A program made the translations under genes and the position numbers. Shown here one piece after another: positions 38,891 through 45,754 of a stretch of DNA of 64,000 nt (positions within the stretch are counted from its first letter, which is position 1; each line of letters opens with the position of its first letter). The DNA lies in assembly GCA_945885345.1 (NCBI GenBank), contig CAMCYP010000002.1, positions 1-64,000 of the forward strand, given 5' to 3'. The stretch comes from Bordetella parapertussis (GTDB lineage Bacteria; Pseudomonadota; Gammaproteobacteria; Burkholderiales; SG8-41). The notes below the pieces were generated by a model. The model worked only from the letters and a program-made list of their open reading frames with translations, was not told the DNA's origin and made no database searches.

Positions 38891-38929
38891 AAATAAATAT
38901 CAATAAAAACAATAACTTATATAATAACT
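38891..38929. repeat. AT-rich 3' element (copy next to ettA remnant)
   Basis: Contains AATATCAATAAAAACAATAA followed by CTTATATAATAACTA, abutting the TAG of the ettA remnant. Closely matches 44051-44091, which abuts the intact ettA stop, so the element belongs to the duplicated segment. Also matches 27621-27650. Confidence 0.6.
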
Positions 38930-39164
38930 ACGCCTTCAAGGGCTTGAACCGCAAACGCTTGGGCTTGGCGCCTTCTTCACCCAGACGCTTGCGTTTGTCG
39001 GCTTCGTATTCCTGGTAGTTGCCGGAGAAAAACACCGCCTGCGAATCGCCTTCGAAAGCGAGGATGTGGGTGGCGATGCGGTCAAGGAACCAGCGCAGCG
39101 ATCGTGCGAAATCACCCGCACGCAGCCCGCGAACTTGAGCAGCGCGTCTTCCAGCATGCTTATA
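38928..39164 (-). pseudogene. Duplicated, frameshifted 3' fragment of ettA
   Basis: About 235 bases align to the last part of ettA (44090-44325), with roughly 19 substitutions (about 92% identity) and a 5-base tandem duplication (CAGCG at about 39093-39101) that shifts the frame. The C-terminal part reads GDSQAVFFSGNYQEYEADK and FKPLKA in one frame, and MLEDALLKFAGCVRVISHDR in another. Homology stops abruptly at about 39165. It cannot encode a functional protein; its interest is as a flank of the inserted caspase module. Confidence 0.9.
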
Positions 39165-39223
39165 ACTTATCGCCGGTTGCCCATCCAAGGCGCAAATCAA
39201 TCTGACTAACGCAGTATCCGGGC

Positions 39224-43928: not shown

Positions 43929-44050
43929 GTGGTTATTCTATTGCTTTCGTGACAGGATGATTGCAATGTCATGCGCCCTGCGCGAGCTGACTCAGCGCGA
44001 TCCGAAGCGGTCGTACAGCAAATCCGCCGCAGCCAGTAGAGACTCTTGGA

Positions 44051-44091
44051 TATCAAAAAATACCAATAAAATCAAATACTTATTGACATTT
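44051..44091. repeat. AT-rich 3' element after ettA
   Basis: Contains ACCAATAAAATCAAATACTT, then ATTGACATTTA reaching the ettA stop. On the minus strand CAATAA/TTATTG can pair and is followed by GTATTTTTTG, so it may work as the ettA terminator. AATCAAATACTTA (44070-44082) fits the IHF consensus WATCAANNNNTTR. Confidence 0.6.
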
Positions 44092-45754
44092 AGCTCTTCA
44101 GCGGCTTGAACCGCAGACGCTTGGGCTTGGCGCCTTCTTCACCCAGGCGCTTGCGTTTGTCGGCTTCGTATTCCTGGTAGTTGCCGGAGAAAAACACCGC
44201 CTGCGAATCGCCTTCGAAGGCGAGGATGTGCGTGGCGATGCGATCGAGAAACCAGCGATCGTGCGAAATCACCAGCACGCAACCGGCGAATTCGAGCAGC
44301 GCATCTTCCAGCGCGCGCAGCGTTTCAACATCGATGTCATTGGACGGTTCGTCGAGCAGCAGCACGTTGGCACCCGTAAGCAGGGTGTGCGCCAGATGCA
44401 GCCGGCCGCGTTCACCGCCGGACAGCGTGCCGACTTTTTTCTGCTGGTCCTGGCCCTTGAAATTGAAACGGCCAAGATAGGCGCGCGACGGCATTTCGAA
44501 TTTGCCGACGTTGATGATGTCGAGCCCGCCGGAAATCGCTTCCCACGCGGTCTTGTCATCGGGCAGTGATTCGCGCGACTGGTCAACCATCGCCAGCTTC
44601 ACTGTCGAACCGATGACGATCTCGCCGGAGTCCGGCGTTTCCTTGCCGAAAATCATGCGGAATATGGTCGATTTGCCTGCGCCGTTGGGACCGATGATGC
44701 CGACGATGGCGCCGGGTGGCACCGCGAACGACAGTTTGTCGATCAGCAGGCGGTCGCCGTAACCCTTGGACACATTCTTGAATTCGATCACGCTGTCGCC
44801 GAGGCGATCAGCAACCGGGATAAAGATTTCCTGCGTCTCCGCGCGCTTCTGGTAATCGAAGGACGACAGTTCCTCGAAACGCGCAATCCGTGCTTTTGAT
44901 TTCGCCTGGCGACCCTTCGGATTCTGGCGCACCCACTCCAACTCCTTTTGCAGCGCTTTCTGCCGTGCCGACTCGGTCGCTTCTTCCTTCTGCAGCCGAT
45001 CCTGCTTCTGTTCCAGCCAGGAACTGTAGTTGCCTTTCCACGGAATGCCGGAGCCGCGATCGAGTTCGAGAATCCATTCCGCCGCATTGTCGAGAAAATA
45101 ACGGTCATGGGTCACTGCAACCACGGTGCCCGGGAAGCGGAACAGGAACTGTTCCAGCCAGTCCACACTTTCGGCATCGAGATGGTTGGTCGGTTCGTCG
45201 AGCAGCAGCATGTCGGGCTTGGACAGCAGCAAGCGGCACAGTGCAACGCGGCGTTTTTCGCCGCCTGACAGCTTGCCGATTTTTGCATCCCACGGTGGCA
45301 GACGCAGCGCGTCGGCGGCGATTTCGAGCTGATGCCCGGTGTCGGAACCCGCATTCGACAGCAAAGCCTCGTATTTCGCCTGCTCGGCAGCGAGCTTGTC
45401 GAAATCAGCGTCAGGCTCGGCATACGCAGCGTAAATTTCGTCGAGTTTTTTCTGCGCGTTGAATACCTCGCCCAGTCCCTCTTCCACCGCCTCGCGCACG
45501 GTCTGCTCGGGATTCAGGTGCGGTTCCTGCTCCAGGAAACCGATATTCAGATTTGGCATCGGCGTCGCTTCGCCGTCAAACTCGGTATCGACGCCGGCCA
45601 TGATCTTCAGCAGGCTGGACTTGCCCGAACCGTTGACACCGAGCACGCCGATCTTGGCGCCGGGAAAAAACGACAGCGAAATGTTTTTGAGAATGACGCG
45701 TTTGGGGGGCACGATCTTGCCCACCCGGTTCATCGTAAATACGTACTGGGCCAT
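44090..45754 (-). CDS. ettA: Energy-dependent translational throttle protein EttA (ABC-F ATPase)
   Basis: ABC-F protein that binds the ribosomal E site and links translation to ATP level. The 554 residues have two ABC cassettes: Walker A GVNGSGKSS and GPNGAGKST, LSGGE signatures, Walker B LLLDEPTNHLD and LLLDEPSNDID, and the arm/linker regions between (WVRQNPKGRQAKSKARIARF). Starts MAQYVFTMNRVGKIVPPKR. Its last 235 bases are duplicated at 38928-39164. Confidence 0.96.
   Translation of the reverse strand: MAQYVFTMNRVGKIVPPKRVILKNISLSFFPGAKIGVLGVNGSGKSSLLKIMAGVDTEFDGEATPMPNLNIGFLEQEPHLNPEQTVREAVEEGLGEVFNAQKKLDEIYAAYAEPDADFDKLAAEQAKYEALLSNAGSDTGHQLEIAADALRLPPWDAKIGKLSGGEKRRVALCRLLLSKPDMLLLDEPTNHLDAESVDWLEQFLFRFPGTVVAVTHDRYFLDNAAEWILELDRGSGIPWKGNYSSWLEQKQDRLQKEEATESARQKALQKELEWVRQNPKGRQAKSKARIARFEELSSFDYQKRAETQEIFIPVADRLGDSVIEFKNVSKGYGDRLLIDKLSFAVPPGAIVGIIGPNGAGKSTIFRMIFGKETPDSGEIVIGSTVKLAMVDQSRESLPDDKTAWEAISGGLDIINVGKFEMPSRAYLGRFNFKGQDQQKKVGTLSGGERGRLHLAHTLLTGANVLLLDEPSNDIDVETLRALEDALLEFAGCVLVISHDRWFLDRIATHILAFEGDSQAVFFSGNYQEYEADKRKRLGEEGAKPKRLRFKPLKS

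Follow-up and report, generated by a model that had tools for sequence, protein, structure and literature searches.

A three-gene unit encoding a caspase-domain protein, a 201-residue protein and a CHASE2-type nucleotide cyclase lies between two copies of the 3′ end of ettA, the gene for the energy-dependent translational throttle, in the 64,000-nucleotide stretch of DNA analysed here (the window). We consider it probable (roughly 0.64) that this unit is foreign and entered together with a donor's ettA end by recombination anchored in ettA, displacing the resident tail. The same kind of event is repeated at ettA in this order with different cargo, and the locus looks like a landing spot of ordinary DNA recombination rather than the target of a dedicated insertion enzyme.

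The duplicated ettA end and the unit it encloses

The locus is laid out as follows (window positions).

36619..37377, plus strand: gene that we take to be SDR-type, the right-hand neighbour of ettA at the empty site
37406..38854, plus strand: GGDEF gene (Pfam GGDEF, 1.2e-47; Cache-domain match below the Pfam cut-off)
38892..39155, minus strand: orphan ettA 3′ end (near copy) with AT-rich element; starts at ettA nt 1443, frame broken
38892..38922, minus strand: AT-rich element that follows the orphan tail; by eye, its outer flank is similar to the one after ettA at the G018 empty site
39224..41323, minus strand: caspase-domain protein (Pfam Peptidase_C14, 1.6e-37)
41361..41966, minus strand: 201-aa protein with apparent signal peptide, a frequent neighbour of the CHASE2 cyclase
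41976..43928, minus strand: CHASE2 sensor with class III nucleotide cyclase (Pfam CHASE2, 1.3e-32; Guanylate_cyc, 1.4e-20)
43929..44054, no strand: junction stretch from module to ettA end; the DNA match to 8 module relatives ends at or before 43872
44055..44085, minus strand: AT-rich element after intact ettA; outer flank, by eye, unlike the empty site
44090..44312, minus strand: far copy, the 3′ end of intact ettA; suggested as the probable import
44090..45754, minus strand: intact ettA (NCBIfam NF008775, 981 bits, cut-off 599)

Comparison of the 64-kb window with itself yielded a single repeat at an E value of 1e-6 or better, pairing 38892-39155 with 44055-44312 in the same orientation (87.5% identity over 264 columns, E 1e-88). 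A preliminary description of the locus had reported such a same-orientation repeat of the ettA 3′ end and its AT-rich element at about 92% identity, a figure that holds for the coding part alone (19 differences in 222 sites) and drops to 87.5% over all 264 columns. It was right that the near copy carries a 5-base duplication: CAGCG stands twice in tandem there (plus strand, about 39091-39100) and once in the far copy, and the extra bases break the frame.

The 30-bp AT-rich element that follows both tails (TAAGTNNTTGNTTTTATT) is dispersed through the genome, with 103 forward and 87 reverse matches at no more than 1 mismatch, compared with 0 for a reversed-pattern control; the window holds 2 matches versus 0 in 100 shuffles, and the element is also frequent in other genomes of the genus. 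We read 30 of the 190 copies: 28 are located outside ORFs of 90 aa, the contexts being 11 after and before plus-strand genes, 9 between convergent genes, 7 between minus-strand genes and 1 between divergent genes. Of the 20 listed matches to the orphan fragment in the whole genome, the 18 beyond the two tails fall in its AT-rich part. Being so dispersed and mostly outside ORFs, the element more likely belongs to gene ends than marks a specific target, and we rejected it as the insertion site. A related observation comes from G060, where the element stands at both ends of a CHASE2 pair in opposite orientations (L092:3518-3542 and 6142-6171).

All three genes between the copies lie on the minus strand, as originally described. 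By eye, the caspase has a Tat-like signal and the H and C of the dyad, and its best solved relatives by E value are MALT1 chains. The 201-aa protein, labelled FecR in the preliminary description, matches no family in Pfam or NCBIfam. In the cyclase, the residues that we take to be catalytic in class III cyclases (D468, D512, N593 and R597) are the same in all 7 sequences aligned. The cyclase and its FecR-labelled neighbour form a common pair elsewhere, a homologue of the 201-aa protein occurring in 48 of 56 loci with a CHASE2-cyclase relative (tblastn; 56 of 71 loci were examined, the last 15, mostly Lachnospiraceae at 24-34%, being left out). Unlike the window unit, however, only 3 of the 56 loci have a caspase match, and in two genomes (G064, G069) the caspase is divergent from the cyclase/201-aa pair, whereas it is co-oriented in the window. 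PADLOC matches cover only the cyclase and caspase domains, with no full-length match of the unit to a defence model (Pycsar and others), and our literature search found no paper combining CHASE2, FecR, adenylate cyclase and caspase, at most three of the four appearing together. The unit likely combines a sensor-cyclase with an exported protease: its predicted function is that of a periplasm-facing sensor, formed by CHASE2 and the small exported neighbour, that would make a cyclic nucleotide, with the exported caspase-type protease as putative effector or partner.

Empty and re-used sites in the genus and the order

The preliminary description had pointed to related genomes as the place to look for an empty site and for the module; an empty site was found, as were relatives of the module elsewhere. 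In 10 of 18 same-genus stretches (G012, G013, G018, G020, G023 and G025-G029), the SDR gene is the immediate neighbour of ettA (46-148 bp between tblastn ends), and these empty-site relatives have a single ettA tail. In four stretches (G010, G011, G017, G024) the SDR gene is 1.1-1.7 kb from ettA, in three (G014, G016, G021) it falls off the fetched stretch and was found on other contigs, and in one (G015) it is about 11 kb away. Given its place beside ettA in 10 of 18, SDR-ettA is likely the ancestral order and the window carries an insertion. The GGDEF gene next to the orphan tail is 93% identical in G015 and at best 42% in the remainder of the 21 genus genomes.

Relatives of the module occur in other genera, away from ettA: the nearest CHASE2 relatives there are at 63-79%, compared with 32-38% for the best in the rest of the genus, and the module's G+C content (58-60%) is near that of the window (61%). 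We discarded the idea of a known donor carrying the module beside ettA, as the 56 CHASE2 loci hold no true ettA within up to 8 kb on each side; the only ABC matches near them, in 2 of 56, are at 27-29% identity. Nor did 8 further stretches with module relatives hold a true ettA. Among plasmids, 268 records matched the caspase, all below 60% identity and none covering 80% of it (31-38% in the best 10 of 268). Within the junction stretch, positions 43960-44050 resemble, by eye, the terminal part of a minus-strand coding frame that has been lost, a possible trace of donor context.

G015 carries two orphan ettA tails and two cargos that differ from the window's, in the order ettA, cargo B, orphan tail f2, cargo A, orphan tail f1, GGDEF (93%), SDR, glnS. 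Cargo B comprises a UGSC-family gene, two genes without a Pfam match, TctC, LysR, TauD and MmgE/PrpD; cargo A comprises two genes without a confident Pfam or NCBIfam match. The preliminary description had held that the fragment present without the module would argue against insertion. The fragment does occur so in G015, but other cargo follows it there, which indicates a re-used site and extends the insertion reading rather than refuting it. Cargo B also stands directly after ettA in G014, G016 and G021. On another contig of G014, the SDR gene is followed by a short ettA-tail/AT remnant and then the MmgE end of cargo B; in G022 the AT element precedes MmgE, with no recognisable ettA remnant; and in G016 and G021 SDR is followed by a different gene, so that these two do not show where cargo B ends. 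Across these genomes variable cargo lies between conserved core genes, and the ORFs read, part of them also searched with Pfam, included none that we recognised as a mobility gene. The insertion at the ettA 3′ end originally proposed thus gains support from the empty site, the re-use of the site and the module relatives elsewhere.

The nearest relative shifts along the region: several flanking windows are G015-like, much of ettA is G018-like and glnS is G014-like. These shifts suggest exchange within this genus.

Across the order, a search with the last 73 EttA residues matched 318 of 399 genomes and returned a second tail match in 11. Four of these (G177, G250, G251, G281) were set aside, their second match being a 42-44% paralogue, so that real second tails are present in 7 of 318: the window's own genome (G000), G015, G160, G193, G207, G274 and G452. 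An additional, decayed second tail in G101 was found at lower stringency, below the threshold of that search, and a fragment in G006 was rejected as an event because its position at the edge of a contig would also fit the end of an ettA that was split. The six orphan-tail genomes outside the genus represent six other families of the order. Four of them have both tails on one contig, with different cargo in between: a nucleotidyltransferase/HEPN pair in G160, a PIN-domain gene in G452, a DUF5615 PIN-like gene in G274 (where the intact ettA seems split between two contigs), and a two-partner secretion pair in G101 (ShlB with a 2367-residue TPS protein). The stretch between tails is about 0.8-1.0 kb in G160, G274 and G452, whose cargo families we assume to be toxin-type. 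In G193 and G207 the orphan and the intact ettA are on different contigs, and in G193 a PIN gene follows the orphan. Beside the G160 orphan tail there are also a protein of 743 residues that matches nothing in Pfam and an Eco57I-type methylase (L267:3843-8107), perhaps a restriction system.

As controls, the mraY end matched in 391 of 399 genomes with a second match in 2 (G367, G420; contamination and duplication are both possible), and the glnS end matched in 341 of 399 with none, this control being less sensitive because glnS is less conserved. The ettA end looks enriched for second tails in this order, with the reservation that two controls are few: 7/318 versus 2/732 for mraY and glnS together gives P = 0.0044 (Fisher test), P = 0.012 when G000 and G015 are counted as one event, and against the best-matched control alone, mraY (2/391), the enrichment is weak (P = 0.086). 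Class-wide, at a threshold that is less sensitive there, matches were present in 278 of 370 genomes, with a second tail in G000 alone.

Divergence of the copies and the route of entry

The two window copies differ mainly at synonymous sites, with a dS of 0.317 and a dN of 0.012 (13 synonymous and 2 non-synonymous changes), or 0.332 and 0.026 (13.7 and 4.3 changes) when the codons beside the 5-base duplication are included, for a dN/dS of about 0.04-0.08. This bias departs from a null in which both copies are unconstrained (P = 3.8e-7) and from the fairer null in which only the orphan is free (P = 1.4e-4; all codons, P = 0.0032). An orphan copied in place and then left to decay would gather non-synonymous changes, and since few are seen, we rejected in-place duplication with later decay as disfavoured. 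The synonymous bias indicates instead that the copies diverged as parts of working ettA genes before they met; they seem to come from two bacterial lineages, and the incoming DNA then carried a donor's ettA end. The preliminary description had left a choice between an old insertion and a donor tail, and the divergence favours the latter.

Under the same only-orphan-free null, bias was found for the orphans of G207 (dS/dN 0.382/0.014, P = 1.8e-6), G452 (synonymous sites saturated, dN 0.088, P = 4.9e-5) and G193 (0.197/0.029, P = 0.038), for f2 of G015 (0.199/0.020, P = 0.021) and for the G274 tails (3 changes, all synonymous, P = 0.043). It was not significant for G160 (0.187/0.047, P = 0.053), f1 of G015 (0.083/0.006, 5 changes, P = 0.074) or G101 (0.67/0.14, P = 0.093). 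Outside these three, the copies in several other events have, by their substitution pattern, likewise diverged as working genes before meeting.

Which of the window's tails is foreign can be approached through dS between G000 and G015. Neighbouring genes give 0.373 (GGDEF), 0.452 (SDR), 0.48 (CaiB), 0.54 (45846-46640) and 0.63 (glnS), and ettA codons 1-360 give 0.58-0.73, compared with 0.198 for the intact ettA tails. The orphan and f1 are at 0.465, within the 0.37-0.54 of the four neighbours other than glnS. The orphan thus behaves like native DNA of the lineage and the intact tail like an import, and the AT flank outside the orphan resembles the G018 empty site by eye. The pattern is only suggestive of import, because all three comparisons give the last 200 ettA codons a lower dS than codons 121-360, and constraint may contribute. 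A tail tree was discarded as a means of choosing the native copy, its sequences being short and its support low.

From these observations we infer the identity of the foreign tail, the route of entry and the kind of second joint. The CHASE2-cyclase/FecR-labelled/caspase unit would have arrived on DNA that also bore a foreign ettA 3′ end; homologous recombination inside ettA would have joined the resident ettA body to the foreign tail, leaving ettA whole; and the joint at the other end of the incoming DNA, also within the resident ettA, would have been illegitimate or else made by recombination through an ettA-tail arm already present on that DNA. The resident tail would have been pushed 5 kb downstream, where it is now decaying. 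A unit flanked by two ettA tails could in turn enter another ettA by homology alone. Extending this reading, we tentatively propose, as a possibility that we would not yet favour, that the ettA 3′ end serves in this order as a portable homology arm, with small units, several of them toxin-type, travelling with a tail copy, entering by RecA recombination alone, stacking and leaving orphan tails. If true, this would be a mode of accessory-gene mobility that does not depend on a dedicated recombinase.

Gene 3′ ends are classic integration targets, and a tyrosine or serine recombinase acting at the ettA end, with the incoming element carrying a replacement tail and the recombinase since lost or supplied in trans, would account for the clustering of some fragment starts. 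The nine starts (ettA nt 1085, 1380, 1420, 1437, 1443, 1443, 1466, 1467 and 1523) partly cluster at 1437-1443 and 1466-1467: the window orphan and f1 share their first base (nt 1443, both after CAT) despite different cargo, the G193 start lies within 6 bases of it, and those of f2 and G101 are within 1 base of each other. The starts at 1085, 1380, 1420 and 1523 do not fit such a site, and the spread from nt 1085 to 1523 led us to reject a single crossover site in ettA. The inner joints of the fragments lie between ettA and DNA unrelated to it, and the roughly 0.8-1.0 kb between tails in G160, G274 and G452 is less than one would expect of an integrative element. In six genomes (G000, G015, G160, G274, G452 and G101) the ORFs read between copies, with Pfam run on part, included none that we recognised as a recombinase. 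With no recombinase recognised and the starts varied, recombination anchored in ettA is favoured over site-specific integration, which the preliminary description had offered as an option and which we regard as unlikely. Long target duplication from the resident tail, in which the copies started out identical at the arrival of the module and came to differ later, would match the layout described for Helicobacter restriction-modification genes and the finding that each of three orphans is closest by identity to the intact ettA of its own genome. The broken copy should then have gained non-synonymous changes, contrary to the dN/dS of about 0.04-0.08 (P from 1.4e-4 to 0.0032); the substitution pattern disfavours this explanation unless the orphan was translated and selected until recently, and we judge it quite unlikely.

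Such selection is the substance of a further alternative, that the orphan is a functional mini-gene of 74 codons, starting with ATG and encoding a C-terminal EttA peptide, which selection kept from the G000-G015 ancestor onwards until its recent break in G000. That the window orphan and f1 share a start by coincidence is unlikely; if both descend from one event, selection must have acted on the orphan as a 74-codon frame, and if they arose separately, coincidence or a preferred joint is required. The same ATG at the same start base speaks for the mini-gene, as does f1 itself (L069:12737-12961), an open frame for the last 73 EttA residues with one change relative to the window's EttA and possibly an expressed mini-protein, as predicted from its frame; the orphan-f1 dS of 0.465 is also similar to that of GGDEF (0.373) and SDR (0.452). 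Yet f1 is nearer to its own genome's ettA (dS 0.10) than to the window orphan, the ribosome site appears by eye weak or absent, the frame is broken in G000 and only two genomes are concerned, which makes this account very unlikely. It is most improbable that the locus is an assembly chimera joined at two similar ettA ends: although the genome is a metagenome-type assembly of 69 contigs with 5.49% contamination, the copies differ by 12%, the contig (C2) is 200 kb, the module's G+C content is near the window's and the layout recurs in other assemblies. Recombination anchored in ettA that brought in a donor tail thus remains our preferred reading.

Relation to known systems

At rhs and cdiA loci, a new gene end displaces the old one, and orphan toxin ends are left downstream. 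The exchanged end is itself the toxin there, whereas at ettA a conserved end is followed by cargo. Unlike an integrase island at a gene 3′ end, the ettA locus has no linked integrase that we recognised among the ORFs between copies and no constant crossover point, and searches of open-access literature gave no relevant account of islands at ettA or yjjK. Insertion with long target duplication was reportedly described by Nobusato et al. in 2000. As presented for Helicobacter restriction-modification genes (PMC1643837, PMC4978471, PMC3031569), it leaves a gene unit flanked on both sides by direct repeats of target DNA that are long and variable, and the window is like it in that a long direct repeat (264 bp) flanks the insert and the empty site has a single tail, as that process requires. 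It differs in that the window cargo is not a restriction-modification system (usual there, not strictly required), in that one housekeeping gene end serves as the target in several families, and in that the window copies look like the ends of two diverged working genes.

According to a 2017 study, many transfer hotspots are without mobile elements, with recombination at flanking core genes (PMC5635113). They share with ettA the core-gene flanks, the variable cargo and the lack of an integrase, but the double-crossover model alone, as set out there, predicts no duplicated gene end, whereas the window leaves orphan tails. Homology-facilitated illegitimate recombination, with homology at one end and an illegitimate joint at the other, is known from experiments (PMC3240628) and would yield one orphan tail; its abstract describes no natural locus that is used repeatedly. 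For the entry of genes into hotspots without mobile elements, ettA offers an explicit footprint: a displaced housekeeping gene end with synonymous-biased divergence indicates that DNA of two lineages was joined. An orphan tail with low dN/dS could serve as a simple test for recombinase-free insertions at any core gene, and ettA is a defined locus at which such an insertion could be reproduced in a transformable laboratory strain. As far as our searches go, what is new relative to these systems is the combination of a housekeeping target shared across families, cargo other than restriction genes and copies that appear to come from different lineages.
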